IMG/VR virus record: IMGVR_UViG_3300025120_000122
Coordinates: 1 to 44,426 of that record
Length of the DNA: 44,426 nucleotides
Origin: a virus
Direction: 5' to 3' (one strand)
The notes beneath the pieces are model-generated. The model worked only from the letters and a program-made list of their open reading frames with translations. It was not told the DNA's origin and did not search any database. Both the position numbers and the translations under genes were made by a program. Below, in pieces: positions 2,789 to 38,800 of this stretch (position 1 is the stretch's first letter; each line of letters begins with the position of its first letter).

Positions 2789-3052
2789 CTACGAAAAATT
2801 GCTTGGGGGGCTTGTCCGTGCGTCCTCTAGGGTTTCTTCCTTTTCAAGCGTTTTAACTAATCTATTTAGGTACCATTGTGCTTTTAAGACATCTTGAAGA
2901 CCTTTTTTGCTTTCATAACGCCACATATACTTTTGGATGTTGCCTTTTAGGTATCCTTTAAAGGCCTCCGCCGTCATGCTTTCTTCTATTGCGTCTATGC
3001 ATTCTATATTTCCGCTATTGTAATGCGGGGGTGAGTTTACGTAATCAGTCAT
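2789..3052 (-). CDS. DUF3310 family phage protein
   Basis: The 87-residue product shows the DUF3310 pattern almost end to end: an N-terminal VNSPPHYNSG, then IECIDAIEE, FKGYLKGNIQKYMWRY, and AQWYLNRLVKTL. The family is widespread in phages, usually among early or replication genes, and is sometimes labelled nucleotide-kinase-like without biochemical proof. This is the last gene of the long leftward operon. Its ATG overlaps the upstream nuclease gene by 8 bp, which suggests translational coupling. Confidence 0.9.
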   Translation of the reverse strand: MTDYVNSPPHYNSGNIECIDAIEESMTAEAFKGYLKGNIQKYMWRYESKKGLQDVLKAQWYLNRLVKTLEKEETLEDARTSPPSNFS

Positions 3053-3446
3053 TTTTATCTCCTATAGTTATGCTGGTTATAAATTCTATAAAAGAATCAA
3101 AGGTTATGCTTTGCTTATTAAATTCTTTTAGGGTTATATATTCTAGATTAAAATCTTGCGTTAGGTAAACCTGGTTTTTTATAGCCAGGCAGGCATAACA
3201 TTTAATGTTATTAAAAAGTTGAAGGTTTAACCAAATACGTTGTTGTGGGGATAAATTAAACTTTAGTTTAGAAGTCTCTTTTGTTGGTATTTTTTCTGTG
3301 TATTTGTACTCGATAAAACAATGGTCATTGCGACCTGAGTAAAAAGTGTCTGGAACTCCCCCGTGGTAGGGGTCGTTAATCTTCCATCGATAGATGGTTT
3401 TAGGTAAGTGCTTGTGCACTTTATTTATGAACTCCTTTTCACGCAC
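3045..3446 (-). CDS. PD-(D/E)XK nuclease (VRR-NUC / resolvase-like)
   Basis: The 133-residue product has a compact nuclease core: GGVPDTFYSG (Pro32-Asp33) followed 13 residues later by FIEYKYT (Glu46-x-Lys48). That is the PD...ExK arrangement of PD-(D/E)XK enzymes such as VRR-NUC proteins and phage Holliday-junction resolvases. Its length fits a stand-alone resolvase. The start is GTG at 3446; no in-frame ATG exists nearby and no good Shine-Dalgarno is seen, so the start is uncertain. It lies among replication genes, so processing of recombination or replication intermediates is a reasonable inference. Confidence 0.75.
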   Translation of the reverse strand: MREKEFINKVHKHLPKTIYRWKINDPYHGGVPDTFYSGRNDHCFIEYKYTEKIPTKETSKLKFNLSPQQRIWLNLQLFNNIKCYACLAIKNQVYLTQDFNLEYITLKEFNKQSITFDSFIEFITSITIGDKND

Positions 3447-4227: not shown

Positions 4228-4599
4228 TTATGTTGACCTAAAGTTAATTTTGGTCAACTCCGTACTTTCAACCCCAGGGATGTTATCCCCAAGACTGATA
4301 GCCTCCCTATAGGCGGTGGCTGACATACGTTTTTGTAGTAGTTCAAACCTGCCGGTTTTTGCTACGTACTGTTGTAACGTATCCCAGTCATCGACTGTAG
4401 GTACAACCTCCTTTTTAAGGGAGAGTGTTCGTCCGCCATTAGATATTTTCTCAAGACCTTCGTCTTGCATTCTAATGGCTATCTGCGCTTCTAGCTCACG
4501 CTTTTCCGCATTGTATTCTTTTTCTTGTGCTTTTAGCTCTGTAATGCCATCTCGCACGCGACCGTATTCGGCCAATAAGTCATTTAGTTTCTTTGCCAT
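4228..4599 (-). CDS. Conserved phage coiled-coil protein of unknown function
   Basis: The 123-residue product has an N-terminal coiled coil (about residues 8-42, rich in Lys/Glu/Ala). A compact C-terminal part contains a WDTLQQYVAKTGRFELLQKRMS segment and ends in a LGDNIPGVES turn and a beta-like tail. This C-terminal pattern recurs in phage early proteins next to SNF2-like helicases; no activity is known to me. It overlaps the helicase gene by 20 bp, so the two are probably translationally coupled. A helicase accessory role is inference. Confidence 0.7.
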   Translation of the reverse strand: MAKKLNDLLAEYGRVRDGITELKAQEKEYNAEKRELEAQIAIRMQDEGLEKISNGGRTLSLKKEVVPTVDDWDTLQQYVAKTGRFELLQKRMSATAYREAISLGDNIPGVESTELTKINFRST

Positions 4600-5938
4600 G
4601 TCCTACCTCCTGTAGAATGTGTAATAGATTTTCCATTCGCCCTAGCTTAGTATTAAGCTTTTTATACACCTCAGGCTCCCAAGTGTTTCGCGCTTGTATA
4701 AGTATAGTTTCGGTCTTTTGAGTCTGACCAGATCTATATATACGTTGGTTGAATTGTTGAAAATGTTCAGCATTGTATGTAGGCGAACACCATATAACTG
4801 TGTTAGCTCTAGTAAGTGTTAAACCATGACTTGCTGATTGTGGGTGACACAATAGCATTTTAACTTGCCCAGCTTGGAATCGTGCAACTATGTCTTTTCT
4901 CTTTTCAGCTTTGACCGTACCATCAATGACTTCATAAGTTATGCCTTGTTTTTCTGCTAGTTCAATTAAAGCATTACGTTCGTGGCGCCAGTTGAATGCT
5001 ACCAGACAGTGCGCACGTTGTTCTACAAGAGTCATAACTATGTCATAACGTTCTTGATGAACGAACTGCACTAACTTATCTTCGTCATATACTGCACCTG
5101 TAACTAGCTGCAAAAGCTTCTTGACACGAGCTCCTGCATGAACAGCGTTAACAGTCCCTGTCTTAGTGTATAAAACAGAGTCTTTAGCAAGGAGATTATA
5201 TTTTTGCTGTATCTGTTTAGACAAGTTAGTGTTTATCGTACGTGTAATGTTGTCTGGTAGATCCATACATTCGGACAACGCATAACGTATAGTTATATCA
5301 CGCAATCTAATAGCAACTGCGTCTTCAGCATCGGGTTTGTCTATCCATTCATTAGCAAAGCCATTGAACTTAGGTGTACATACTTGAGACCTGAATTGAA
5401 AAAACCTAGCTCCTAGTCTTTCGCCATCGTCAACTAAAAATGTTGGATGCCAAAGATCTAAAATTGTATTACTGTTAGGAGTACCAGACATAATAATCCT
5501 ATTAGTAAAATGGTGAATAATATCTTTAATGTTTTTACTTCGTTTAGCTGTACGATTTTTAAAAGCAGTAAACTCATCAATAACAATAGTATCGAATTGT
5601 TTACAGAATCGTGTGTTCTTGCGTAAAAAATTAACAGCTTCGAAATTAGTAATGATCATATCTAAATCGTTTTGTTTAAATATTTTTTCTCGGTTTTTAG
5701 CGTAAGCAACTCCGTATTTTATGTTGGGTTGAAATTTGTTAATGTCTTCCCCCCATGCCGCTTCTAGTATAGAAAGGGGCGCTATTACTAATGTACGTCC
5801 GCCAAGGGCCGCATGCGCATCAAGCACGGCGCGTGTTTTACCAGTGCCTGGGTCTGAGGTAATCATACATTTTGGATTTGCTACTATGAAATTAGTAGTC
5901 TTTTTTTGGTGGTCGTAAGCCACGGGTATATCGTTCAT
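4580..5938 (-). CDS. SNF2-like superfamily 2 DNA helicase/translocase
   Basis: The 452-residue product carries the SF2 motifs in order: Walker A DPGTGKT (residues 29-35), motif Ib-like VIAPLSIL, motif II VIDEFTAF (Asp121-Glu122), motif III MSGTP (150-154), and motif VI QRIYRSGQT near residue 398. The last is the SNF2-type version with Arg402. Length and motif spacing fit compact phage SNF2/helicase-C proteins, which remodel or unwind DNA during replication. The start ATG follows AAGGAG and lies within a heptamer repeat tract. It overlaps the downstream coiled-coil gene by 20 bp. Confidence 0.92.
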   Translation of the reverse strand: MNDIPVAYDHQKKTTNFIVANPKCMITSDPGTGKTRAVLDAHAALGGRTLVIAPLSILEAAWGEDINKFQPNIKYGVAYAKNREKIFKQNDLDMIITNFEAVNFLRKNTRFCKQFDTIVIDEFTAFKNRTAKRSKNIKDIIHHFTNRIIMSGTPNSNTILDLWHPTFLVDDGERLGARFFQFRSQVCTPKFNGFANEWIDKPDAEDAVAIRLRDITIRYALSECMDLPDNITRTINTNLSKQIQQKYNLLAKDSVLYTKTGTVNAVHAGARVKKLLQLVTGAVYDEDKLVQFVHQERYDIVMTLVEQRAHCLVAFNWRHERNALIELAEKQGITYEVIDGTVKAEKRKDIVARFQAGQVKMLLCHPQSASHGLTLTRANTVIWCSPTYNAEHFQQFNQRIYRSGQTQKTETILIQARNTWEPEVYKKLNTKLGRMENLLHILQEVGHGKETK

Positions 5939-5996: not shown

Positions 5997-6752
5997 TCAC
6001 GTTTCCGACCATTCGCAAACTGGGTATGTACCCTTGCCATACGAACACCATTTACAATTGTATGTAGATGGGTTTGGTGGAAATTTAGTTGCAGTAGTCA
6101 TAGCTATTGCTCTATCGTGTAACTTGGGCATGAAGACCATTGCTTCATCCCGAGTATACACCTGTTCTAACATAGTGCCGTGATCAAGATACCATATCTC
6201 GGTCTTAGCAATCTGTAAGTCTGGGTATCTAAAAAAGCTACCTATTGCGTAGACAAGAGCTTGTTGGCTGTGAGGTATCTCATTACCAAAAGCTTTGCCT
6301 GTTTTGTAATCTATTACACGAGCTGACGTTTCTGAGTCATGTACAAATGCATCGAGTTTGATACGTCCCCATACATCTGGAGCCATCCAACCACAAGCTT
6401 GCCAATCTCGTGTAAATCCCCAATCGCCTTCAAGTTCTACTTTAGCATCAACAAACATTTCTCTAAGAACTTTAAATTGATATGTAAACTTTTTAAGAGT
6501 GTCGGGAAATTCGCCTAGCTTACCGCATACATAATCTTCTGCTTGTTTGTGTATTTCCGTACCTCGTGCCGCTGCGGGCCCGAAGTCTTCTTGCACTTTC
6601 TTTACTTTAGCTATGTAAGAGCGATAAGCACATGATTCGAAAGTTTTTAGGGTAGAGTATGACCAAGCTGGTATATAGCCTAACTCTATGTCCTCCGTGA
6701 CCTCAACTGCTGAGATTAGGTCTGGACGCTTGGATTGTGTTAGATTCTTCAT
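5997..6752 (-). CDS. Cas4/RecB-type PD-(D/E)XK nuclease with 4-Cys cluster
   Basis: The 251-residue product has the PDDEXK_1/Cas4 architecture: an N-terminal STLKTFESCAYR with Cys41, a GTEIH motif (His68), KLDAFV (Asp134), VIDYKTGK (Asp148-x-Lys150), and a QxxxY-like QQALVYA at 163-169. It ends with a cysteine triad, C233xxC236 and C246. The four Cys (41, 233, 236, 246) match the iron-sulfur site of Cas4/AddB-like nucleases. Such enzymes degrade or resect DNA ends. The ATG lies 50 bp inside the upstream primase-helicase gene, an unusually long overlap; later starts would lose little of the conserved core. Confidence 0.88.
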   Translation of the reverse strand: MKNLTQSKRPDLISAVEVTEDIELGYIPAWSYSTLKTFESCAYRSYIAKVKKVQEDFGPAAARGTEIHKQAEDYVCGKLGEFPDTLKKFTYQFKVLREMFVDAKVELEGDWGFTRDWQACGWMAPDVWGRIKLDAFVHDSETSARVIDYKTGKAFGNEIPHSQQALVYAIGSFFRYPDLQIAKTEIWYLDHGTMLEQVYTRDEAMVFMPKLHDRAIAMTTATKFPPNPSTYNCKWCSYGKGTYPVCEWSET

Positions 6753-9189
6753 CTAGTAGTCCTAAGTCCCTTTCATCGAAATGTTGTTCGATTAACTCCT
6801 TTCGTACATTATTATCTATTTTCCATACCAACACAACTCCGCGAGGTATGCCAGCTGTGCGGTCCGTACTTATACGTTTACGTGCAGTTTTAATACTTAA
6901 CCTGGACATACGTTTAGCAAACTCACGTTGTGAAATAGTATTTCGAGTGTCAGTTAACGCATCATGTACAACTTTAAAATGCGCTAATGGTATGACTTGT
7001 TCGTTTGATGATTGTGCTAACCAATCTTTTACGTATCTTTGTGCCGTGCTAATGCCGCCTGCTTCAAAAGTGTTTGTAAGCGGAATATCTAATATGTCAG
7101 TAAAATATTCTAAGTTGCGTATACGTATTGCGTTTGCAAATTCTTCTAATACAGACATGGATATTTCTTTCATCTCTTTCTTAGCATCGTTTTCTAACGC
7201 AGTGTGGGCCATTCGTGCGTTTACCTGAAACTTATTCAGGATACCTGACACGATATAAAGTTCTTTATCTAATAAATGTAAGTTATCTATTAGGTCTTTA
7301 TGCGTAGCTTCTAGTTTAACTTCTTGACGAGGAGCTACATTGTAACGCCTGTCTGAGTCTTCTATCTTTACTGCATCTGCCCTGTTAGTCAGAAATATAA
7401 AGTTCGTGTAAGACGGCAGCTCAATTTGGTTGGTACGCATAGCTCTAATTGTTAGAGTGGGTTCTGTAATCTGATGTTTTAGCTTGTCGGCCATACGGCC
7501 TACTGAGCCTGAATCAGCCATACGAAACTCATCAACTACAAGAAACATTGCTGTGCGCATGTAAAGGTTGAATTGTTCTTCTATATTTTCTAAAGCTCGC
7601 ATTGGTGTTTGTTGTTCACCAAACAAAGGTTTAAGAATCTTGTGTACAAACAAACCCTTGCCAGTCCCAGGTACGCCCGTGAATATCCAAGCGGTCATTG
7701 CTTTACGTTTGTTCTGGTATATGTACGCAAGCCAATTAATGAAATGTTCAAACTCAGGCTTACCGTCGCCAAGTATGTGCATTACCAATTTGTAAAAATT
7801 AGGTGCAACATTCTGGATCTCAATGGCATCACCGTACGTAAGTTCTTTTACGTTCTCTTCTGGTTGCAGCATGTAAGATGTACGGCGAAATAAATTTACG
7901 CTGTAAGGAACAGTGTCTAAGTTAATACCTTCTTCGCTACTTGGATCAAATACGACCCTAGCATCAGGAACGTAATCCAAGGAAGCGCGACTATGAGACT
8001 TAAGAAAATCATTAAGACTGTTTTTATTGGTTGGCGTGAGGGGGTAGTCCTCACTAAACTGTTGTTTGGTTTCATCATATACTCCGTTATAAAATGTGTC
8101 TGTGTAAAAATCACGTAAGACAACTGGTTTCTTTTTAGTGTCTGCATCTATTTTATCTGCAAATATTTCAAATATATTGCGGTAAAAATCTGCATCTGCT
8201 TTTTCTATTTCCCAAATAGGCTCTCCTTTAAAGTTGTACATATAATGTGGACTTGTTAGTAAGAAGTAATAACCTCCACTGTCGCCTCCGTTTACGTTGC
8301 AGTTAACGTAAGGCTCCGCTACACGCGTAACTTCTATAATCATTTTGTCTGGGTTTTGTAACACTTCGTGCGACTCTCCAGCAACGTTGACCGTGGATAA
8401 CTTACCTGTTCTTTTAGGAAGGTTGTTTTTCTTCCTAAGATTGTCTTTAATTTGCAAACCTAAAGCATGAACTTTTTCAGGGTTCACCCCAACTAAAGAC
8501 GAGGAGATTTTAAGAACAGCTGAACCACGGTCAACTTTGATGAATCTACCATTTGGATAAGGATCTTCAACACCAACGAATTTAGGTGGTGCTATATAAA
8601 TTAACTTACTGTTGTCTGCCACTGATGGATCTAACACGCACGACAGACTTTGGCCGTTGGCCGACAGAGTAATTTGTTCTGCAAGGAACTCACTTTCGTA
8701 ATTTAAGTTGCGTAAAAAATCTTTAAGGGTTTTAGGATGTACGGGCATATCCATAAGAAAGAATAAATGTAGTGAAATTGTATTTTTCTTTACACCCAAA
8801 GAAGCGCTGGCCTGCACTATGTACGAACAGTTGTGAAATATATCAGGTAATTGAAGCACGATACGATCGGCCATAGCTTGTAAGTCATCTCCGGGAGTTG
8901 CACGTAGACCATCAATGTCTAACACGAGCAATTCTGTTGTAGCTGTTCGGTCGGTCATAAACGCCCTGGGCTCATCAATGAGCGGACGTTTTAATGAACC
9001 TTTTAACATACACGCACCGGCCTCTGCTGCAGCGCCAAGTGCACGAAACAATTTGCTAAGACCTTTTTTATCAAGAGAGATGTCTTCTTCTGATGATGTA
9101 AAGTTTTTAACAAGGGGGTATGGCTTAGTGCCATTTTTAGTTATTTCTTTTGCTAAAGATTTTTTAGCTTGTAAAAATATAATTTTCAT
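6703..9189 (-). CDS. AEP-like primase fused to SF3 helicase
   Basis: The 828-residue product combines two replication domains. The N-terminal part has signs of an archaeo-eukaryotic-type primase/polymerase: LLVLDIDG (Asp91, Asp93), TISLHLFF (His141), and SCVLDPSVADN (Asp187), in the usual order of the catalytic motifs. The C-terminal half is an SF3/D5-like ATPase with Walker A GVPGTGKG (Lys511), Walker B FLVVDEF, and a sensor-type FIFLTNRAD, then DRRYNVAP. A winged-helix-like tail follows. Such fusions prime and unwind at phage replication forks. The start ATG overlaps the csrA stop by 4 bp, so the two are coupled. Confidence 0.88.
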   Translation of the reverse strand: MKIIFLQAKKSLAKEITKNGTKPYPLVKNFTSSEEDISLDKKGLSKLFRALGAAAEAGACMLKGSLKRPLIDEPRAFMTDRTATTELLVLDIDGLRATPGDDLQAMADRIVLQLPDIFHNCSYIVQASASLGVKKNTISLHLFFLMDMPVHPKTLKDFLRNLNYESEFLAEQITLSANGQSLSCVLDPSVADNSKLIYIAPPKFVGVEDPYPNGRFIKVDRGSAVLKISSSLVGVNPEKVHALGLQIKDNLRKKNNLPKRTGKLSTVNVAGESHEVLQNPDKMIIEVTRVAEPYVNCNVNGGDSGGYYFLLTSPHYMYNFKGEPIWEIEKADADFYRNIFEIFADKIDADTKKKPVVLRDFYTDTFYNGVYDETKQQFSEDYPLTPTNKNSLNDFLKSHSRASLDYVPDARVVFDPSSEEGINLDTVPYSVNLFRRTSYMLQPEENVKELTYGDAIEIQNVAPNFYKLVMHILGDGKPEFEHFINWLAYIYQNKRKAMTAWIFTGVPGTGKGLFVHKILKPLFGEQQTPMRALENIEEQFNLYMRTAMFLVVDEFRMADSGSVGRMADKLKHQITEPTLTIRAMRTNQIELPSYTNFIFLTNRADAVKIEDSDRRYNVAPRQEVKLEATHKDLIDNLHLLDKELYIVSGILNKFQVNARMAHTALENDAKKEMKEISMSVLEEFANAIRIRNLEYFTDILDIPLTNTFEAGGISTAQRYVKDWLAQSSNEQVIPLAHFKVVHDALTDTRNTISQREFAKRMSRLSIKTARKRISTDRTAGIPRGVVLVWKIDNNVRKELIEQHFDERDLGLLDEESNTIQASRPNLSS

Positions 9190-9380
9190 TTTTTCTCCTT
9201 CACTTTGTAAATCTCTTCTCTATCAATGCGGACAGTTGAATCCGCTTCGAACGCTAGTTTGCATGCGCGTTGAGAAATGTTGGTAACCGTAATCGTGCAC
9301 ATTTCGCCACCAGGCGTGTACACTTTTACACGATCACCAACTTTTCTTGTTAAGACAAGATTTGATTTTCTATTTGTCAT
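9186..9380 (-). CDS. csrA: CsrA/RsmA-family RNA-binding regulator
   Basis: The 64-residue product aligns over almost its whole length with CsrA. LVLTRKVGD (residues 8-16) matches the first strand, with Arg12 equivalent to Arg6 of E. coli CsrA. The C-terminal VRIDREEIYK (50-59) has Arg54 equivalent to Arg44, followed by the EEIY signature. Both RNA-contact residues are therefore kept. A six-residue N-terminal extension precedes the core. CsrA dimers bind GGA motifs in mRNA leaders and change translation or stability. Here the gene sits between the polymerase and primase genes with 11-bp and 4-bp overlaps, so it is made with the replisome. Targets (host or phage) are unknown. Confidence 0.85.
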   Translation of the reverse strand: MTNRKSNLVLTRKVGDRVKVYTPGGEMCTITVTNISQRACKLAFEADSTVRIDREEIYKVKEKK

Positions 9381-11178
9381 AAACCTGGCTTACGCCTCCT
9401 TCTGCATCAAGCGGTAATTCTTCGCACCAGCTTGGTGGAGTTTTCATAATGTTTAGTATCTTTTCCATTGTAGCATCTGAATTAAGTTCAGAACCCAACG
9501 CAATAATTTCATCATGTACCTGTAACACTACATCAACTTCTGGAAGTGCGTGTACCTCTAACATCTGGTCAGTAATAACAATACGCGCAAGTGCTTGTAT
9601 CACGTTTTCTGCCAGCCGGGGGCCGTATGTACGTACGATACCTTTTTGGGTAGTGTAAATAAATTCACCGCCTACATACCTTAAGTCAGGATAAGATAAC
9701 GACATGCCGTTTGGTAGTTCAAGGCGTTGCGGTCCAACCTTTAGCGGCCCATACTGTGTACCGTAATCTCTAGGTGATATCATGCTAAACAATAGATCTT
9801 TCATGCGCGACCATAAGATAGGTATATTAGAATAAGTTCCACGGTATTGTTGAACGATCTGAGCTGCGGTACTGTCCGACACGTCAACTGACGGCGAACC
9901 TGTTTTAAGAGTATCTTGGAACTTTACGTGTCCCATACCATACCCGAGTCCCAGCACTGCAGTTTTGCCGACATATCTTTCTAACTTATTTTCTTTGGTA
10001 ATAGTCCTACCATATACCTGACCTGCAAATTCGCAATACACGTCATGGCCTTCTATGAACGCATCTAGTAAATCTTGTTCTTTAGCCAGCCACGCGAGCA
10101 TGCGTGCTTCGATGTTAGACAGATCAGCAATGTACATACGTTGACCTTCTGGGGCTTTGATTGCCGTACGTAACTTAGATCCGCGGGGTAAGTTCTGTAA
10201 GTTAATTTTATCTGAGCCACCGAACCTGCCTGTATGTGCGGCATAGTATCGGAGCGGTACGCCAAAGCTGCCGTCAGGGTTGCACGAATCAATAAACCTT
10301 TGTGCTCTGGTTTCATCTATACGTGATTTAACAACTTCTCTGGCATCCCATATGTGTTTATGCTCTGGGTACATATTGCACATTTGCAAATAAGCTGGGT
10401 CATTTTTACCAAATGCTGGTATCTTTTTGCCTGTTGTTGGACTTTTCTTCGTGGGTATTGTAATGCCCAGGCTCTCCAGGTGTGCACGAAACTTTTGTTG
10501 TGACGCAAGAATTTCGCGTGTTACACCTGATGAGCTGACAGCATCTTCTGCACGTTTTGCCATATCTTCTTTATATTGCAACAGCATTGGCTGATCCAAC
10601 AGAAGTTTTGGCTCTACGAACATCCGTGTAGTTAGATCGATCAAGTCTAATTCAGACTCTGGAAATCCAACCACATAGGACTGAAAAAGAGCGTACGTTA
10701 AGTCAACATCCTGAATACAGTACGAACCTATTTGTTCGTCAAGCTCTGGGTTAAGGTCGCGTATGCCTTTGGCACTTGCAAGCTCCTCTCCCTTTCGCAT
10801 AGTATTATCAGACGGAAACTCGCGCGTAACGCAATCTTTCAGCCTTGCGGACACATTAGGGTACAAACCTCTGCTCATTGCAGCTGTATCATAATAATAC
10901 AGTGGGTTGTATCCGTAGTGCCTCGTAAGAATGAAGGCATCAAACAGAGTGTTGTGGCAAACCAAAGCGGTATTACCCCAATCAATTGCAGCTAAGATAT
11001 CGTCTACCTCGTCTGCGCTATACCATTCGGTATCTCCATCGTCCACTTTCAGTCCTACTCCCCAAACTTTAAAATCTTTGTGATTTATATATTGTGCTGT
11101 AGACATTTTAGTCAATGTAAAATGAGTGTCATAGAATGTTTCAAAATCTAAATATAATTTAACTAGGTTTGTATTCAT
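9370..11178 (-). CDS. polA: Family-A DNA polymerase with 3'-5' exonuclease domain
   Basis: The 602-residue replicative polymerase has an N-terminal exonuclease (LYLDFETF with Asp11/Glu13, VCHNTLFDAFIL, and CIQDVDLTYAL) and a polymerase domain. Motif A is YIADLSNIEARML (Asp352), the O-helix motif B is RYVGKTAVLGLGYGMG, and motif C is VLQVHDEII (Asp556). By alignment to E. coli Pol I, the residue at the Phe762 position is Leu409 (codon 9952-9954). The length is typical of phage PolA without a 5'-nuclease domain. It overlaps csrA by 11 bp and the upstream 92-aa gene by 20 bp. Confidence 0.95.
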   Translation of the reverse strand: MNTNLVKLYLDFETFYDTHFTLTKMSTAQYINHKDFKVWGVGLKVDDGDTEWYSADEVDDILAAIDWGNTALVCHNTLFDAFILTRHYGYNPLYYYDTAAMSRGLYPNVSARLKDCVTREFPSDNTMRKGEELASAKGIRDLNPELDEQIGSYCIQDVDLTYALFQSYVVGFPESELDLIDLTTRMFVEPKLLLDQPMLLQYKEDMAKRAEDAVSSSGVTREILASQQKFRAHLESLGITIPTKKSPTTGKKIPAFGKNDPAYLQMCNMYPEHKHIWDAREVVKSRIDETRAQRFIDSCNPDGSFGVPLRYYAAHTGRFGGSDKINLQNLPRGSKLRTAIKAPEGQRMYIADLSNIEARMLAWLAKEQDLLDAFIEGHDVYCEFAGQVYGRTITKENKLERYVGKTAVLGLGYGMGHVKFQDTLKTGSPSVDVSDSTAAQIVQQYRGTYSNIPILWSRMKDLLFSMISPRDYGTQYGPLKVGPQRLELPNGMSLSYPDLRYVGGEFIYTTQKGIVRTYGPRLAENVIQALARIVITDQMLEVHALPEVDVVLQVHDEIIALGSELNSDATMEKILNIMKTPPSWCEELPLDAEGGVSQVYDK

Positions 11179-11437
11179 TTTTAGCCCTCTGTATGGTGTT
11201 ATCTATTATTAAATCTGCGTGTTTTGAATCATCAGCAACACCATATGCAAGCCCAACAAAATAATCTAAGCCGACATGCAATACATGGGGCACGCTTAGA
11301 TGTTCAGCTGCTTTTGAAACTGCCGCATCAAGATCTTCAAACAACTTATCGTGGGCTGCCTCTTCGTCTATTAGCCTACTCATAGTTTGTTTTTCTGATT
11401 CGATGGGTTGACCATCTTTGTTTACTATTTTACTCAT
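11159..11437 (-). CDS. Hypothetical early protein (92 aa)
   Basis: I do not recognise this acidic, Ala/Asp-rich protein. It has a predicted helical N-terminal half and a hydrophobic HVLHVGLDYFVGLAYGVA stretch near the middle that could be a buried helix. It overlaps the polymerase start by 20 bp. Its own ATG overlaps the stop of the 54-aa gene upstream in an ATGA arrangement, with the AAGGAGG ribosome-binding site lying in that gene's last codons. Tight packing supports a real gene. Confidence 0.65.
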   Translation of the reverse strand: MSKIVNKDGQPIESEKQTMSRLIDEEAAHDKLFEDLDAAVSKAAEHLSVPHVLHVGLDYFVGLAYGVADDSKHADLIIDNTIQRAKNEYKPS

Positions 11438-11598
11438 AGTTCCTCCTTGAACTTTTTAATTTCAGTTTCTAAATAATCTATTGCATCCCAAAGTGTATCA
11501 ATAGAGTCTTTCATTTCTTGTGAACAATCCCCTATCTCATTGTCTAAATGAGACATCATTGATCGTACATGTTTAATTCCAGTAGTTATTTCTTTCAT
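11434..11598 (-). CDS. 54-aa helical protein, coupled to both neighbours
   Basis: ATG at 11598 opens a 54-codon frame ending in KKFKEEL. The product is short, acidic and probably alpha-helical (HVRSMMSHLDNEIGD, then DYLETEIKKF). Its ATG overlaps the upstream stop (ATGA), and its last codons encode the AAGGAGG that serves the next gene. The same junction sequence, TTCAAGGAGGAACTATGA, occurs at both ends of this gene. Function unknown. Confidence 0.6.
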   Translation of the reverse strand: MKEITTGIKHVRSMMSHLDNEIGDCSQEMKDSIDTLWDAIDYLETEIKKFKEEL

Positions 11599-11807
11599 AG
11601 TTCCTCCTTGAACTTATTCATTTTTGTACACCACTGTTCGTACTCTGAACGCTTTGCACGTTCCCAACCTATTTGCTTACTGGTGTACATATTGTAAGCA
11701 ACAGATAATTTGACATACTTCCATTGTATATAAGGTAAGTCGTCTGGATTGTTGTATGTATATGGATGAATCGGATTACGTTTCACATAGACATGAGATG
11801 GGGGCAT
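11595..11807 (-). CDS. Hypothetical early protein (70 aa), first of its sub-operon
   Basis: The 70-residue product is rich in Tyr, Pro and Lys (HPYTYNNPDDLPYIQWKYVK) and ends in KFKEEL, whose codons supply the next ribosome-binding site. No family is recognised. It follows the lone + strand gene's promoter region divergently, so it may be the first gene of a transcript that leads into the polymerase. TAAGGAG lies 5 bp before the ATG. Confidence 0.6.
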   Translation of the reverse strand: MPPSHVYVKRNPIHPYTYNNPDDLPYIQWKYVKLSVAYNMYTSKQIGWERAKRSEYEQWCTKMNKFKEEL

Positions 11808-11828
11808 TTAATTACTCCTTAATTAAAC

Positions 11829-11857
11829 TTGACAAAAACCAATATGGTCTTTATGAC
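11829..11857 (+). promoter_or_regulatory. Sigma70-like promoter for the lone + strand gene
   Basis: A perfect TTGACA (11829-11834) is followed after 17 bp by TATGAC (11852-11857, 4 of 6 to consensus). It lies 50 bp before the ATG at 11908 and is oriented towards it. The gene is otherwise surrounded by oppositely oriented genes, so it needs its own promoter. Confidence 0.5.
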
Positions 11858-11868
11858 TGTATATAGAT

Positions 11869-11888
11869 ATTACCTAATAATGGGTAAT
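11869..11888. promoter_or_regulatory. Inverted repeat between promoter and start (operator candidate)
   Basis: ATTACC and GGTAAT flank an 8-bp centre, just downstream of the predicted -10 box and 19 bp before the start of the + strand gene. A repressor operator or leader hairpin would both fit; nothing identifies the binding protein. Confidence 0.35.
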
Positions 11889-11907
11889 AAAACAAACGGA
11901 GAATATT

Positions 11908-12318
11908 ATGGCAACTTTTACAAGTGATCCTGTTTCAGGTAATCAGTCGTTCAAGCCATTTCCAAGTGGAAATATTGGCGTGAGATACGCTAAATTTAAT
12001 GTAACTGCTGCACCAAATGCTGCTGATGTATACCAAATGGTAGACATCTTTGCTGGTGAAACTTTACATGACATCAAAATAAAATCTTCTGATTTAGACA
12101 CAGGCACAGGTTTAGTACTTGACGTCGGTGACGCTACAGATCCAGATAGATTTATTGATGGTTCTACAATCGGCCAAGCCGGTGGTACAGACCATGAAGA
12201 TGCAAATCTTGCTCCTATTACCTATAGTGCGGATGATACTATTGACATTACTTGTCAAGTAGCACCTGCAGGTGATGTTGCAACTGGCACATTAGAAATG
12301 TGGATTTACGTATCGTAA
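11908..12318 (+). CDS. Lone + strand beta-rich protein, possible virion decoration
   Basis: The 136-residue product is Thr/Asp/Gly-rich, low in Lys and Cys, and looks all-beta (VRYAKFNVTAAP, DVYQMVDIFAGETL, a C-terminal GTLEMWIYVS strand). This style is that of phage head decoration or fibre proteins, not of early enzymes. It stands alone on the + strand inside the leftward operon, with its own TTGACA promoter, a GGAGA ribosome-binding site and two downstream hairpins. That is the usual layout of a moron. A structural role is inference from composition only. Confidence 0.75.
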   Translation: MATFTSDPVSGNQSFKPFPSGNIGVRYAKFNVTAAPNAADVYQMVDIFAGETLHDIKIKSSDLDTGTGLVLDVGDATDPDRFIDGSTIGQAGGTDHEDANLAPITYSADDTIDITCQVAPAGDVATGTLEMWIYVS

Positions 12319-12364: not shown

Positions 12365-12454
12365 ACTAATGCCACTCCTTGGCATGTTAGGTTTGAAACC
12401 AATTAAGTCAGGTCTTCGCTCGAAGTTAATACACCACCTGTAAATAGTTCGTGT

Positions 12455-13848: not shown

Positions 13849-14952
13849 TTATTGCATGTGAATCACTTCGCCGTATGGGGCGCTGTGATCTTGAGTTGAA
13901 ACCCACAACACTGGATAATGTGGCTGATCGCCAAAGTCTCCGCATTCTAGGTCAGTTAGATATACAAGGGCAGCTGTGTTTGGATGGTTTTCGTTTACAT
14001 AGTCTATGACTGGTGTAAATTCTGTACCTCCTCTGCCCTGGTACGTTACTTTTAGCGGTAACGACTCGCGTGTGTATTCAGTTACATCATTGATTTCTGC
14101 ATCGCATTGTATAAATTGCACACGTTCAGGTGCTAGCTCATGCAAGATGTATGATGTTTCTGTTGTGAACTGAGTTAGTTCTTCTTCGCTAATAGAGCCA
14201 GACGTATCAACTGCAATGACAATCTCTTCTAGACAAGGATTGTGCAAAGAAGGTAGATACATACCGCTAGCAATGAAACGCCTGTTAGGTCTTACCCAAG
14301 TAAAGTCAGACTTGTTATTGGAACGTAAAAAACGTGCCAACACATTCTTCCAATCGACTTTAGGATCGGTGATATCAGATACCACAGACTCTAAGTTAGC
14401 CGATAGTTTACCTTGGGCTTTTGCAGCTTCAGCAGCCTGATGTATTGCTACAGTCAGACCAGCCTCTACGGCACTCAGTTTGCCAGGAGTGCCGTCGTTG
14501 CCTGGGTGGTCCATAACTCCACCGCATTTACCAAAGTCTACAGATACATTGTCCCAGCCTTTTTCAGGTTCTGGTAACTGGCTGTAGATAGCTTCCGCAG
14601 TCATATTGTCATACTGCGAATCCACAAGGCCGCCCTTCGGTAATATAAAACCCTCTGCAATCAAGTAATTGTTGATCGCATAGTCACAAGCTACGTTCCA
14701 CTTGGTCGCATGCCGTTCGTTCCTACGCGTAATATGTAAGAACACAACATGCAACACTTCGTGGGCCAAGAAACCAATACGTTCCATGTCTGTTAGCTTT
14801 TCAAACCATTTTGGGTTGTAGAACAGATGCACACCGTCAGTGGCACCTGTTTCGTCTTCCCATTCAACAACTTTGAGTCGTAAACACAAAGTGCCGAAAA
14901 ATGGATTGTCAAGAATCAATCTAGACCTAGATTTGACAAATATTGGATTCAT
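13849..14952 (-). CDS. VWA-containing metallopeptidase-like protein (DUF2201)
   Basis: The 367-residue product has the two-part DUF2201 layout. The N-terminal part holds a zincin motif, AHEVLHVVFLH (His64-Glu65, His68, with His73 nearby) and WNVACDYAIN (Asp90). The C-terminal part is a von Willebrand A-like domain with the metal-ion site DTSGS (Asp249, Ser251, Ser253), GRGGTEF (Thr near 310) and LTDLECG. These proteins work with MoxR-type AAA+ ATPases, here encoded at 15853-16869, as chaperone-like or metal-insertion pairs. Pairs of this kind (often called CobS/CobT-like) occur in several phages, with unknown role. Its ATG overlaps the upstream stop by 4 bp. Confidence 0.88.
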   Translation of the reverse strand: MNPIFVKSRSRLILDNPFFGTLCLRLKVVEWEDETGATDGVHLFYNPKWFEKLTDMERIGFLAHEVLHVVFLHITRRNERHATKWNVACDYAINNYLIAEGFILPKGGLVDSQYDNMTAEAIYSQLPEPEKGWDNVSVDFGKCGGVMDHPGNDGTPGKLSAVEAGLTVAIHQAAEAAKAQGKLSANLESVVSDITDPKVDWKNVLARFLRSNNKSDFTWVRPNRRFIASGMYLPSLHNPCLEEIVIAVDTSGSISEEELTQFTTETSYILHELAPERVQFIQCDAEINDVTEYTRESLPLKVTYQGRGGTEFTPVIDYVNENHPNTAALVYLTDLECGDFGDQPHYPVLWVSTQDHSAPYGEVIHMQ

Positions 14953-15852: not shown

Positions 15853-16869
15853 CTATAGTATAACGTTAGCGTTTTTAGTGATCCAATTACGTATGGCTAC
15901 GTGTTGGCGTAAATCTTTGTTCCTGGCTAGACAACCTTTGACGAGAACAACTTGATACTCGACGATAAGTTTCGTTGCGAGTTTCATAATGTTGTCCATT
16001 GTGTCATCGGCCGCTCTGGCTGCAACAGCATTAGACAAAGCATACAACAACGCAGGGTTGTCATCGGCTTTGTATTTAGATGGATCTTTGATGATCGCAT
16101 CTATGTCGGGTAGTTTGCTAGCAATTTCTTTGAAAGCTACAAACTCACCGGCTGCTCCATCGCCAACCAAAGAGGCAACACCGTAGAATAATCTAGTAGG
16201 GTCAGAGTTAGCTCGTTGGAGCTTTTTGCTGACCATTGACCATGCACGTGGTGTTGGAAAGGCGTATTCATCAGCTTTGAAACTAGACAAAAGTCCAGGT
16301 CTGTACTGAATAAACGAGATAACATCGGTATCGATATTATGTTGATGTGCCCATTGAACCCAGTCCTCTAGGATCGGTTCCAACTCGTAATGCGCTAGTC
16401 TGTTTCTAACTGGACTTGGCATTTGATACACAGCAGCTGAGTCAGTCAATCTATTACCAGCACAAACTAATGCCCAACCAGTTGGGAGCTCATAATCACC
16501 CAGCTTTCTGTTGAGCAATAGTTGTAAAAACGCATTCTGCGTTGCCGGTGGCGCTGTTGGTAACTCGTCAATAAACAAGATACCTCTGTCGCCGTCGCGT
16601 TCCGCAATCGGAAACACGTCAGGTACGGCCCAAGATGTGTATTTGGTAGCTTCTGGGTTAGCTTGCGCTAGATACGGAATACCTCTTACATCGACTGGGT
16701 CGAATAAATTTGCACGAAAATCAATGATATTCATGTTCATTTCGGCGGCCACTTGGGCTGGTATATCAGATTTACCGATACCTGGTCCGCCCCAAATCAT
16801 GGCGGGGTAGCCAGCTATAACGGCGTCTGTTAGCTCAGCTTTAAGTGCTTGTGGGTTTATGGTTTGCAT
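15853..16869 (-). CDS. MoxR-family AAA+ ATPase (CobS-like)
   Basis: The 338-residue ATPase has Walker A GGPGIGKS (residues 27-34), Walker B GILFIDEL (Asp101-Glu102), a sensor-1 Asn in VCAGNR (Asn139) and Arg-finger candidates in PSPVRNRL (155-157). The order and the LPTAPPATQNAFLQLLL segment are typical of MoxR/CobS ATPases. These form hexamers that remodel partners through VWA proteins, and the partner is encoded three genes downstream. GGAGG lies 6 bp before the ATG. In phages such pairs are recurrent but unexplained. Confidence 0.93.
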   Translation of the reverse strand: MQTINPQALKAELTDAVIAGYPAMIWGGPGIGKSDIPAQVAAEMNMNIIDFRANLFDPVDVRGIPYLAQANPEATKYTSWAVPDVFPIAERDGDRGILFIDELPTAPPATQNAFLQLLLNRKLGDYELPTGWALVCAGNRLTDSAAVYQMPSPVRNRLAHYELEPILEDWVQWAHQHNIDTDVISFIQYRPGLLSSFKADEYAFPTPRAWSMVSKKLQRANSDPTRLFYGVASLVGDGAAGEFVAFKEIASKLPDIDAIIKDPSKYKADDNPALLYALSNAVAARAADDTMDNIMKLATKLIVEYQVVLVKGCLARNKDLRQHVAIRNWITKNANVIL

Positions 16870-32851: not shown

Positions 32852-35800
32852 GTGGCGATTGACAGTAATACAATTGCTAAGTTTAAACAAACTCCCGATG
32901 CTACCCGAACTACTTTTGTAGAAACCGCCGGTAGGCGTGCTACTCCAGATGCAACTTATGTAGAAAAGATAGATACCATTGGGGAAGCTTTTGGTGCAGG
33001 CATCGAGTCCGGCGCCGCAAATATATCCGCGCAAAATCAAAATTTTTTAGCTGCTTTAGATACTTTAAAAGGCGATGACTTAAAAGCCAGGAACAGGATT
33101 AGAGAAGCAGATTTTCTTGAAGACCAAGCTGGTATACCACTACAAGGGCTTGAAACGGATTTTGCTAGTTCTCTTGAAGAAGGCAACGTGCACGATTTTA
33201 TGCTTAACTTTGCATCCGCCACGGGGCAGTTTATACCTTCTTTAGCAGCCAGTTTAGCTGAAGCTGTTGTTGTAGGGGGAGTTGTAGCCGGTGGTTCTGT
33301 GTTGTCTGGTGGTACTGCAACCCCTGCTTTACTAACAGCCGCAGCTGCTGGAACAACCGCTCGAAGGAAAGCTGTAGAAGGTGGAGTAAAAGCCTTAAAC
33401 AACCAAAGATTTCTTGTAGGTGGGGGAAGAAAACCCGGCAGAGATGCAGGAGACGTAGAGGATCTACTTAATCGAGCTTACAAAAACCAAATTAAAGTTA
33501 ATGCTGGTAAACAACCTTTACATAAGTTTTCAAAGGAAGAATTACTTGACTTAGAAGATATATACGGCGTCATGCGTTCTAACTTGAGAGGCAAAAGATT
33601 TACCCAAGGTGCAGTTTTAGGTGCATTTACCCAAGAACAGAGAATGGGTACGGGTATAGCTTTTAGTGATTACGTTGACCAAGGAATGGACAGCAAACAA
33701 GATGCTATTAACTCACTAGTACAAGGTACAGCTTTTGGTGTTGTTGGAGTCGGTTCTGAAGCTTTAACTGCGGCGGCTACTTTTAGAGCTTTTAAAAGGC
33801 CAGGCAGACTTAAAAAAACTAGGGCTACAGACCCATTTAAGTTTGACCCTATACCTCCAGGTAGTATGTTTAAAGACTTTGCTTCAATAAGTGCGGTTAC
33901 GTCTGCTTCCGAAGGCCTTGCTGAACTTTTACAAGAAGAACTTTCCGTGCAACAGAAATTTAGGATAGATAAAGACTACACGCAGGCCCAAGCAAAAGTA
34001 GATAGGGTAAACGCTCTGTTCGCAGGTGTTATGGGTGGACTGGGTGTTGGTGGTGGTTTAGGTGCGGGTACTGCAGTTATAAATAAAGCTAGAAATCTTT
34101 CGCAAAGGGGTGCCGCTGAACGTGAGATGATGCGTATTTTTTCAGATAAAGAGTTCCAGGCATCTATAGGTGCAGTTATGGGCGAACGCGCCGGGGCCCT
34201 AGAGACGCAGTTTGATTTTATAAAGAACGAAAACTCTGGAGCAAAAAGTGTGTTTGTCCCTATAGAAGCAAAAGCAGAGTTTGCAAAAGTACAAGAGAAA
34301 ATAGAAGCCATGTTTGGTGACAATGAGTTGTTTAGCGTTTCGACGCCTATAGGCGCTTTTTTTAGCACGGACCAACGTGCTGCTGGCAGACTAGCAAATA
34401 TCATGGATAGTGGTTATAAGTATGACACTGGTATTTTAGAAGGGTTCTTAGCAAAAGAACTTGGTTTTAGTAGAGGCAGAAACCCTAGAGATGACATAGT
34501 AGTTGGGCTTTTTGATAACGAAAAAGGTGAGTTTGTTAAATACCAATCTGCTAGAGAAGATATAAAAGGAGATGCAGAAGCCGCACAAGCAGCCATGAAC
34601 AAAATAAGGGCGGCTATGGATCCGAAGAGGTACACGGTAGAAATCCAAAGCTTGGCACAACACAGAAAGTTTAGACAAGAAGGACTGCCAAAAGATGCTG
34701 ATGTACTAAAAGCTACCAAAGAGGCTTTTGAAACAAGCGATATGTCTGAGATGGGAACTAGTGACGATGATGCTGGAGTAGAGGGGGACAGAGGAACCCA
34801 AAACCTAGATGTAACAGCAGCCAACATTGACATAAGAAAGAACAAAGTGCCCCCAACCCAGAGAGCGCAGTTTGATGCTTATCTTAGAGACGTTTACAAA
34901 CTACCAATTAACTTTAGCGATCTTGTTTTCTTTATTGACCAAACGCCAAAATTTTTAAATGCAATACGAGCAAGAGAAAAAAGTAAAAAATCAACACCAG
35001 TACTACAAAGTAAAGATGGAGCAAGATACCGAGATATATATGGTGAGTTAATAAATGCCGAAAAAAATGCTGGGGCCCTTAGCGCAAGCGATAGAAACTT
35101 TATACAAAATCTAACCGAAGGAAATAGTCCTGGCCGTATGGCTGGAATATTGAACCAGCTTTTAGATGAAATAGTCGAAGAAGGAGCACAATTACAACAA
35201 TCGGATTCTATTGAAAGTAGTTTAGCCAGAGATGAGTTTGGTAGTAGAGAAGTTACTAACGTGCCTTTGGTAGGAGTTAGTGAGGTTTTAAATAGAACCA
35301 ATATTGAGTTAGAAAGACCAAACCCAAAAGACTTTAAAAAAGGCAGAAAAGATAAAGCTTATATAAAACAGCTTGCTGATTTTAGAGCTGCGCAAAGAGA
35401 GGCTAAAGCTCCTATAAAAGAACAAGATCCAGTCGTTATGGCTAAAAAGGGCTCGGGTACTGTACAAAATCCATTTGTAGATCCAAAGACAGACAAAGGG
35501 TTTGAAATATCAAAAGGTGATCCTAAAGCAGATGGGCGTTCTATTGCTGGATTAAATACATTTATACATCCTACTCTAAGGGCTGAATTTGAAAGCCAAA
35601 AACCTTTTTTATCTAAAAGGGCAGTACAAACTTTTAGAGATAAAGCCAAGCTAGAAAGAGAAGGAACTAGCCAAACAGGGTTCTTAAGATTTGTAGATGT
35701 AAGAGATCTAAGAGGCTTAAGAACAGCAACAGCTAATAACAAAAGTTTTACAGTCCCAAATAGAAGGCTAGTTTTGCCTAACGTTCCTATAGTACCTAGA

Positions 35801-38800
35801 AAATTCAAAGGCGATAAAACTATGGGTGGGTGGGCTTCGTATAATAGAAAAGAAAATAAAATCTTTATTGATGAAAGCGAGTTAAAAAAACGTTTTGATG
35901 CTAAAGCTTGGACTAAACCAAAAGTAAAAGGGGTTGATCCTTTAGCTGCAGATCAATTTAAAACCATTAATGAATGGCGTAATTTTATTGTTAAACATGA
36001 AACAGCACACTCTATGTTCCCAAGAAAAGACGGCGAAACGTTAGCTGCGTATGAAAATAGAATAAACCAAATTGCTACAGATGAAAAAACATCTATAGCG
36101 ACCGGCAAGGAAGCTTCTACAATCCAAGAGATTGATCCTAGTACTTTTGCAGTTATCCCTAAAGTAATTTATAAAAAAGGCGTAGCCGCCGTAAGAAAAG
36201 CTGAAACTGCTGGAGAAGGTATAAATGTTCTAAGAAAGGCGGGTAATGAACATTACGGAAACCCTTTCACTATGTTAAAAACGCCAACTAGAGCAGACGT
36301 AAAAGTAGACACATTAGAAGAAGCAGTAAGTCGATATACAAGTTGGCTAGAAGGTACGTCTGATACTGACTTACAACAAGAAAGACGCCAATGGATTATA
36401 GATCAAATAGATAGTGGTGCTCTGGATAATAAGAATCTTTTATATTATACCGAACAGACTCCGAATCACGCTGAAGCTTTATTACGTTTTTCTGAACAAA
36501 GGTCAGCACCAAAAACAACACCAGATCAAGTTGGCGATTTTAGGGCAACTAACAGATTCGTTATTGTAAGGATGAAACCCGACCCAGAACAGTTTAGAGA
36601 GATTACTAGAGAAAATGTGGATACCCTTAGAAACATACGTGCAGATCTCCAGATAAGATTAGATCAAGCGCACGCAAGAACTAGGGCGGGTAGTTATAAA
36701 ACCCCAATACATTTTAAATTACAAAACTTAAACCCAGAAGCTAAAAGTAAAAACCCAATTAATATAGATATGTCAGTTTTACTGGAGGGTATCTCTACTC
36801 TATCTAAAATAAAACAACGTAGACAACCTGAAGAGTACACGAACCAAGCCGCACAAAGAGTTGCATCTTTATTAGATGCAATAGACATACTACAAGAAAA
36901 CAACTTTAAGCTTGAGTACTACCCGTTAGGCGTAAAAGAAGATGCAGTCTTCACTATGACAGGGGGCAAAAAGAAAAGCGACATAGAACTAGGAGCTGCT
37001 CTTGATGACATCATCTCTCAACCAGATGGGCCTGGGGCAAGTATCCTTAGAATTACAATGCCTAAAAAATTTGAGGGCGAGTTCGCTCAACAGGTAGCGT
37101 ATCTACGACAGCAGTTTGGTCTTCCAAGACTAGCTAGTGGTTTTTTTACAAACGATAGATTTGCAAAAGTAAACATTCCTTTAAAAGAACTAGTGTACGA
37201 AGCAGGGCCCACACCCTTAACTGCTGGTATGAACCCTGCATATATTGTGCCTTTGATACAAAATGTCGAAGCTAATACTATGCAGGAAATGACTCTACAA
37301 GAACTAGAAGATCTTGCGGCTAGGGCTGAAGATGCTTTAAGTGTTAGGTATGCTGCAGTAGATAAAGATTCTAAAAAGACACCCGGTGAAGTTAAAGACT
37401 TGTACGGAGAAGTTCAAGCCCAAGACAGGACCATAATGCAGTTTTTAAATGAAATAGGAAAAATTATAGCTGCTATAAACAGTGCGGATATAAGAAACCA
37501 ACCCGGCACATTTGATGCAAACTTTACTAGAACAACACTTCAACGTGATGAAGAAGGCGACCCAACTTCAAAAACAGTTATACAACCTAGGTTTGTAGAT
37601 GTTGGAGGTAGAATTGATAAAGAGGTACCAATAGAAACTTACTTAGATGATCTTCAAACAATCGCTATAGAAAGAGCCACACCTTCCATAGATGAGACTG
37701 GCATGTACAATTTAGACAGTCCTTCCGATACACAGATTACAGATAACTCTGCTATGAAAATGGACATACAAGATCGAAACTTGTTTGAATCTTACCAAGA
37801 ACAACAAGGCAAAGAGTTTAGGGGCAGAGATAGATACGCAGACCTAGCAAGAGCAGGTAACATAAAACCAACTTTTAAAGATAATACCAAGTATCAGAAG
37901 GTTACAGCGGTATATCTAGGTAATGTCATACAACAAAAAGCCAATAAGCTAAGAGGCATAGATACTCCAGCACCTACTACAAGGACAAGAGCAAACTTAC
38001 CTTTTAGAAAACAAATAATAACCAACATGATTGGCGCAGCTAGGAACTTAGGCCTTACAACAAACCTGCATGTGATTGCGGCTGAAGAAGGATACAGTGA
38101 TTCCCAACTGCCCCCTAGAATTAAAAATGTAATAGACCAAAAAAACTTTGATACTAAAAGACAAAACTTGTTAGGGCAACCAGATAAAGTTGCTATGACT
38201 CTGCAGTACAGAGACTTTGATATTATTTTAATAAAAACTAACCCAAATATATCAGAGGGACAATACTATTCTGCCTTCTTAAAAGAATTAGGTAACTCTT
38301 TAACTTTTCAAGAATTAGAAAGAAGTTTAAAAATACCCGCGACTAGAAAAAAAATATTACAGGCTTACGAACAAATATTAAAAGGCAACAACGTGCCTCC
38401 AACTTATACTAACGATGACACGGGCATAGAAAACTTTATGGCTGACCAGTTTAGTGTAGCTATAAGAAAAGAACTAGGCGTAGAAGTAGATGGCGCAGTG
38501 TTTGACAGCATGAACAAACCCACTCAGGCTTGGTTCAAACGGTTAGCTAAGTCCCAAAAGAAAATGTATGACCAGTCAAAAATATTTAAAAAAAGAACTG
38601 GGGTAGACGAGACTTTCCAAGAGTACGCAGCTGACTTGCAACAAAAACTTATAAACCCAGAAAATCAACAAGTTCCATACAAAACTAAAGCGAGTATAGA
38701 AACAATGATTGAGGGTATTCTTGGGCCAGAAACGTTTACTGATAAACAGTTACGAAAAGCTATGGAACAAACAAGTAAGTTATTTAAAAGCAAAAACCTA

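Follow-up and report, generated by a model that had tools for sequence, protein, structure and literature searches.

The window analysed here comprises an entire IMG/VR record (44,426 bases); since relatives reach 56-64 kb, it is probably partial. Its minus strand carries a replication operon of overlapping genes, in the middle of which lies csrA, a small gene of the CsrA/RsmA family. The genes of this module are the following.

9186..9380, minus: csrA, 64 aa, CsrA/RsmA family RNA-binding protein (by Pfam, AlphaFold2 with Foldseek, and dN/dS)
9370..11178, minus: pol, family A DNA polymerase, 602 aa (Pfam DNA_pol_A, 7.7e-29)
6703..9189, minus: primase/helicase-like replication protein, 828 aa (PHROG DNA primase, 4.6e-22; DUF5906)
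11159..11437, minus: u92, small ORF with a 20-nt overlap with pol (counterpart in L002 and L004-L007)
11434..11598, minus: u54, small ORF with 4-nt overlaps with u70 and u92 (counterpart in L002)
11595..11807, minus: u70, which opens the replication operon and is kept in relatives
5997..6752, minus: PD-(D/E)XK nuclease with a 50-nt overlap with the primase (Pfam PDDEXK_1, 3.7e-15)
4580..5938, minus: SNF2/DEAD-type helicase, in the same module as csrA (Pfam search)
4228..4599, minus: gp33-like gene, whose leader carries a predicted CsrA site (Pfam DUF7307)

The chain runs u70-u54-u92-pol-csrA-primase-nuclease, with overlaps of 4, 4, 20, 11, 4 and 50 nt. The initial annotation had described csrA as coupled by overlaps to the polymerase and primase genes, and this is what is found: pol ends inside csrA, whose start codon lies within pol (11 nt in common), and the primase starts in the csrA stop codon, as ATGA (4 nt in common).

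Some further features of the window are recorded here. Within the early module, on the opposite strand, u136 (136 aa; 11908-12318, plus) is 98% identical in the relative G006, though the G006 polymerase is only 66% identical, which suggests a recent exchange. Between the divergent genes u136 (plus) and u70 (minus) lies the dyad TATTACCTAATAATGGGTAATA (11868-11889); a palindrome of different sequence is kept at this position in relatives, and could be an operator or a terminator. The hairpin AUGCCA[AGGAG]UGGCAU (12369-12385, minus), 3' of u136, is found in most close relatives with no start codon there, and is probably a terminator between convergent genes. A DUF2201 metallopeptidase/VWA-like gene and an AAA (MoxR-like) ATPase gene (13849-14952 and 15853-16869, minus) form a pair kept in all nine other near-complete relatives, while a 2615-aa ORF (32852-40699, plus) is strongly variable, with 27-79% identity between relatives. 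No tRNA was found in the window.

The product of csrA, translated from the minus-strand ORF 9186-9380, is MTNRKSNLVLTRKVGDRVKVYTPGGEMCTITVTNISQRACKLAFEADSTVRIDREEIYKVKEKK. The gene is below the size limit of the home-made gene caller and was located by homology; in the ORF reading, the plus strand carries stops across the same positions. The protein scores above the cut-off of the Pfam CsrA family PF02599 (42.1 bits, E 8e-11, cut-off 27) and is assigned to PHROG 9500, 'CsrA-like regulator'. Against the NCBIfam csrA equivalog TIGR00202 it reaches 34.5 bits, below the cut-off of 70.1, and is thus a member of the CsrA family rather than an equivalog of bacterial csrA. Its nearest solved relatives by sequence are RsmE, RsmA and CsrA (E about 1e-3), with an identity to solved members of about 30-34%. 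An AlphaFold2 monomer, predicted from an alignment of 52 family members, has a mean pLDDT of 90.2 and shows the CsrA fold of beta strands and a C-terminal helix; its best PDB matches by Foldseek are all CsrA/RsmA/RsmE (probability 1.00, TM up to 0.88), with E-values of 6e-3 to 2e-2 for what is a very small chain. The 64-aa CsrA homologue of the initial annotation, which left the strand unstated, is therefore borne out by profile and fold. Known CsrA members are dimeric, as domain-swapped homodimers; the structure prediction that had been proposed there is answered here by the monomer model, as to the fold.

Arg12 and Arg54 of the phage protein correspond to R6 and R44 of E. coli CsrA. Among 84 distinct csrA homologues, R54 is present in all 84 and R12 in 82, so that both RNA-contact arginines are indeed kept, and their loss in relatives, which had been named as a refutation, was looked for in these homologues and did not occur. 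Invariant across the set are L8, L10, I52 and R54; L10 and R54 (each 84/84) match L4 and R44 of E. coli CsrA, two contact residues that are critical for RNA binding (PMC7652899). The gene is under purifying selection, with pairwise dN/dS of 0.07-0.39 and a pooled pN/pS of 0.19 in the gap-free close set. Positions 9186-9380 thus encode a CsrA-type protein, for which RNA binding is predicted from sequence and model.

A scan with csrA yielded 56 loci, most of them with the order pol-csrA-primase-nuclease-helicase-gp33-gp34. Ascertainment by csrA itself was avoided by a scan based on polymerase alignment, from which 80 viral loci, with polymerases 52-100% identical, were kept; pol-positive contigs number more than 600. 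All 79 viral loci extending past pol have csrA directly after it; L100, the sole viral locus without csrA in this place, ends 108 nt past pol. A contig of a Ca. Neomarinimicrobiota MAG also has pol and then csrA, for a total of 80 of 80 informative loci, which answers the search for csrA in relatives suggested by the initial annotation. Pairwise divergences of csrA and pol are parallel (Mantel r 0.86, p 0.001), and csrA is thus inherited with the operon. By sequence, then, csrA belongs to the core genes of a marine phage lineage and has a fixed place after pol. No csrA was found next to pol in the cultured distant relatives KPP25, RHph_TM3_14A and phiA008 (polymerase about 30-34% identical), and tblastn of the csrA protein against GenBank phages gave no match.

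The MAG contig, L133 (PBPT01000002.1, 60,834 bp), is a near-complete relative phage and the sole relative found in a genome bin; it may be a host hint or a misbinning, and is not counted as host evidence.

CsrA binds with high affinity to hairpins whose loop contains GGA; the ANGGAN hexaloop is one well-characterised form (PMC3791407, PMC7652899). Scanning both strands of the whole window, only ten tight hairpins with GGA after A were found, and four of them sit 9-11 nt before early starts, those of u70, u54, u92 and the gp33-like gene. These four, and three further hairpins considered here, are listed below.

11806..11828, minus: H2, Shine-Dalgarno (SD)-sequestering hairpin of u70, predicted CsrA site, GUUUAAUUA[AGGAG]UAAUUAAAU
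11831..11849, minus: H1, hairpin in the 5' leader of u70, window version GACCAUAUUGGUUUUUGUC, without GGA
11599..11614, minus: H3a, AGUUC[AAGGAG]GAACU at the u54 start, predicted CsrA site with an ANGGAN hexaloop
11438..11453, minus: H3b, second copy of AGUUC[AAGGAG]GAACU, at the u92 start, predicted CsrA site
4601..4617, minus: gp33 site, predicted CsrA site UUCUAC[AGGAG]GUAGGA, where the gp33-like gene starts
3427..3442, minus: weaker candidate GUGAA[AAGGAG]UUCAU, within the opening codons of ORF 3045-3446 (VRR-NUC-like)
9388..9413, minus: hairpin before csrA, with AGAAGGAG loop, not conserved

H2 is formed in 23 of 31 unique u70 leaders of relatives, versus 3.9 expected. Orthologous gp33 leaders show the hairpin in 7 of 45 cases (1.6 expected) and the leaders of a DUF3310 gene, in relatives, in 17 of 52 (3.2 expected); in a distant clade a hairpin, GGCUC[AGGAG]GAGCU, stands at the primase itself. 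As H3 and the gp33 site both fall within the last part of the coding region upstream, coding constraint may contribute to these hairpins. The window has no Rfam match, and so no known sponge RNA family of the CsrB/RsmZ type.

Two candidates were rejected. GGA is present in the H1 loop (as AGGAG, AGGAU or AGGAA) in only about half of the relatives and absent from the rest, as it is from the window, which rules H1 out as a universal CsrA site. The hairpin directly 5' of csrA, in which GGA derives from the pol C-terminal DAEGG codons, is broken or GGA-free in most relatives, and a conserved autoregulatory hairpin in this place was likewise discarded.

Leader hairpins of the same type were also seen elsewhere. 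AACAC[AGGAG]GUGUU precedes a late gene in five genomes, in one of which the protein was identified, a late-strand 2OG-Fe(II) oxygenase (L146:10719-11285, minus). An HTH_3 regulator gene of the distant relative G005 (L153:11973-12506, minus) has AGUUUC[AGGAA]GAAACU in its leader.

The u70 leader was compared in 49 distinct relatives, in which it contains the two hairpins H1 and H2. The H2 stems include AAUUA/UAAUU, AAAUA/UAUUU, AAAAUU/GAUUUU and AGUC/GACU, and the loops AGGAG, ACGGAG, AUGGAU and UAGGAG; the H1 stems, which show compensatory change, include GACAAAA/UUUUGUC, GCAUUC/GAAUGU and GCAUUU/AAAUGU. In H3, which stands where the gene following u70 starts, AAGGAG loops are carried by the stems AGUUC/GAACU, AGUUU/AAACU, ACAAUUC/GAAUUGU and ACUUU/AAAGU. 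Pairing is 91% for H1, 76.7 for H2 and 85.7 for H3, versus 73.5 +/- 2.9, 69.2 +/- 2.1 and 71.4 +/- 2.5 in shuffled controls, each covariation score is above 500 of 500 shuffles, and sliding the stem partners drops pairing to 56% or less; these covariation figures lean towards structure, because the aligned rows were selected with the loop as centre and are related by descent, a lean of which the flank re-pairing test reported below is free. A constant GGA loop on a changing stem is what is expected of an RNA site read at its loop, and the reverse of what is expected of a DNA operator.

The initial annotation had pointed to the many phage ribosome-binding sites that contain GGA. The observation is correct, GGA being present in 89% of the leaders of early genes and 61% of those of late genes, but GGA is common in leaders because it is the SD consensus; among GGA-bearing leaders the share with ANGGA is 52% in early and 45% in late ones, and GGA in ribosome-binding sites was dropped as evidence for CsrA. 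The possibility, raised in the same place, that the protein acts on GGA-containing phage leaders is strongly supported on other grounds, namely by sites in hairpin loops.

The frequency of such sites was evaluated in ten near-complete relatives (204 early and 220 late leaders), with six csrA-less phages, T4 and the distant relatives KPP25 and phiA008 among them, as control (258 leaders); gene starts were taken from the home-made caller. A loose MFE test (51 versus 19) was superseded by rigid stem tests, in which the GGA of the SD must lie in a loop of 4-6 nt on a stem of 5 or more pairs, and then by tests of loop class and flank re-pairing. Counting all tight GGA loops, hairpins are found in 33 of 204 early leaders (6.4 expected), 16 of 220 late leaders (6.5 expected) and 8 of 258 control leaders (8.1 expected). 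Six mutually diverged genomes alone give 19 of 136 early leaders versus 4.3, and the window alone 4 of 17 versus 0.49.

For loops of the A(N)GGAN form, the search of the leaders that had been recommended for ANGGA yields 25 of 204 in the early set, versus 0.9 expected by shuffling the flanks and 1.6 (maximum 5 in 200) under a null in which real left flanks are paired anew with other leaders. Late leaders have 8 of 220 (1.0 expected) and the six csrA-less phages 2 of 258 (0.8-1.0 expected), neither T4 nor the five other controls showing a hairpin excess. Early leaders differ from controls with a Fisher p of 7e-8, and from late leaders with a p of 0.001, values that are indicative only because related genomes are not independent. 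Over all loci, 994 unique early-strand leaders contain 66 A(N)GGAN hairpins, versus 4.1-6.4 across the two nulls, whereas other loop types amount to 30 versus 22.9 expected; the excess is thus specific to the loop form bound by CsrA. When the two commonest site types are removed, 45 A(N)GGAN hairpins are left versus 5.4 by flank re-pairing. About 93% of the unique early leaders in this wide set have no A(N)GGAN hairpin, and the sites differ between relatives. Early leaders of the lineage therefore present the GGA of the SD in CsrA-type hairpin loops, beyond nulls and csrA-less phages.

We consider it likely that the phage protein is an autogenous translational repressor of early phage mRNAs, a counterpart of T4 RegA built on CsrA. 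The marine phage lineage would have made a CsrA-type protein its own early translational regulator. Translated mid-chain among the overlapping genes from u70 to the nuclease, the protein would bind A(N)GGAN hairpins at u70, u54, u92, gp33 and other early starts, and block ribosome entry at the SD; by translational coupling, the synthesis of pol, csrA and primase would be lowered, and the resulting negative feedback loop would cap or shut off early synthesis, as RegA does in T4. Binding to the hairpins, repression, and its spread to pol and csrA by coupling are the inferred steps of this model.

By analogy, repression is a likelier sign of regulation than activation, because the SD is placed in a loop 9-11 nt before the start and H2, being AU-rich, is weak alone. 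H2 is comparable to the unstable SD hairpin that RsmA stabilises at psl (PMC7652899). CsrA can also activate, as at ymdA (PMC7652899), and an activation of this kind by the phage protein is possible. One CsrA dimer bridges sites 10-63 nt apart (PMC7652899); in relatives with GGA in H1, the H1 and H2 sites are about 20 nt apart, within this range.

A different role, raised in the initial annotation as a redirection of host translation, is that the phage protein acts mainly on host mRNAs for carbon storage, motility and biofilm, phage hairpins being secondary or only self-limiting; this seems unlikely. Bacterial CsrA controls such genes (PMC7652899) and the RNA-binding surface is kept in the phage protein; yet csrA is a core gene whose divergence parallels that of pol, its product falls below the bacterial equivalog cut-off, cognate-type sites cluster in early leaders of the phage itself, and the MAG that contains L133 has no CsrA match besides the phage's own. 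The ligand of the hairpins could also be a host CsrA or another host GGA-reading protein, with which the phage protein would compete or whose effect it would relieve. The RNA motif would be the same, and some mobile elements carry their own CsrA paralogues (PMC7366521). However, CsrA is found over cut-off in only 19 of 79 other sampled genomes of the one candidate host phylum, Ca. Neomarinimicrobiota, so that most of the genomes sampled there are without it, and the sites track a family whose phages always supply their own CsrA; this arrangement is judged rather improbable.

The loops might instead be targets of a RegB-like early-mRNA endoribonuclease, or tune access to the SD, with no role for CsrA. 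T4 RegB cuts GGAG/U in early SDs and favours unpaired GGA (PMC3014915), and many of the loops are AGGAG or AAGGAG. Against this, in some loops the fourth G or U is missing (AGGAA, AUGGA, AGGA tetraloops), there is no excess in T4 itself or in the five other controls, and none of the proteins covered by a general scan looked RegB-like; the explanation is very unlikely. That csrA is a passenger without regulatory consequence, in line with its description as a moron gene in Bcep22-like phages (PMC9144972), is hardly credible in view of its universal syntenic retention, purifying selection, embedding in overlaps and matching leader sites.

The repressor model can be set beside known systems. With bacterial CsrA/RsmA/RsmE (PF02599) the phage protein shares the fold, the RNA-contact strands beta1 (LxLTR) and beta5 (IDRxE) and, as predicted, the ANGGAN-type hairpin sites over the SD and the theme of autoregulation. 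It differs in being encoded by a core gene of a replication operon, with phage early leaders as predicted targets, and in its lineage-specific F44-x-A46 and I52-D53-R54 core. T4 RegA is a small repressor that binds RNA at the ribosome-binding sites of early transcripts, and its gene adjoins that of the DNA polymerase in the core replication cluster (PMC3014915); the phage CsrA is predicted to be a repressor of this kind. Phage csrA adjoins the DNA polymerase gene in a replication cluster, as regA lies between genes 62 and 43 of T4; regA keeps this place next to gene 43 in every T4-related phage whose sequence was known by 2010 (PMC3014915). RegA represses early mRNAs, its own operon included; in the window phage, predicted sites stand at own-operon and other early starts, where repression would act. 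The folds are unrelated, the phage protein being a CsrA by profile and fold with no RegA sequence, and RegA sites are AU-rich and unstructured and include the AUG, whereas those of the window phage are structured A(N)GGAN loops.

Alleles of csrA are known from phages, in 30 of 2517 phage genomes in a 2020 survey, e.g. F116, VvAW1 and Bcep22-like phages (PMC7366521). They lie in the structural module in F116 and Bcep22-like phages and in the recombination module in VvAW1, unlike the gene of the window, which is in the replication operon. No A(N)GGAN leader excess was found in the other csrA-positive phages (F116, VvAW1 and the metagenomic L049-L057), which offer few leaders, and the hairpin rule may thus be special to the lineage of the window. 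In phage F116 (L174), the annotated CsrA-like regulator F116p47 is in the structural module, while a second 'transcriptional regulator', F116p24 (YP_164288.1), is its CsrA in the 2020 survey. Mobile elements with a CsrA of their own also include Legionella ICEs, with CsrT, and plasmids, with CsrA in replication regions (PMC7366521); these elements are different from the phage. A search of open-access literature turned up no paper that describes cognate sites in any phage, or a phage Csr circuit under autogenous control. Phage csrA genes are therefore already known, and what appears to be new, as read from sequence, is predicted cognate A(N)GGAN sites in phage leaders.

With some caution, we favour the broader view that, in the marine phage lineage as a whole, a bacterial CsrA was domesticated as an autogenous repressor of the RegA type, with a phage-wide regulon of its own. 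The sites would move between leaders, at u70, u54/u92, gp33, the DUF3310 gene, the primase of the distant clade and the late 2OG-Fe(II) oxygenase, with the A(N)GGAN loop kept and the stems free to change. Phage csrA genes have been listed since 2020 without a known target; here one comes with predicted RNA sites that are located, covary and are not in excess in csrA-less phages, which makes its function directly testable with short RNAs. If the model is true, the early leaders and csrA would form a complete, self-contained viral Csr circuit, and, next to RegA and RegB, a further independent way for a phage to shut off early translation. The regulons of other phage CsrAs could then be sought by the rule of A(N)GGAN hairpins over start sites, and a widespread group of uncultured marine phages would have made a dedicated viral feedback device out of a bacterial global regulator.
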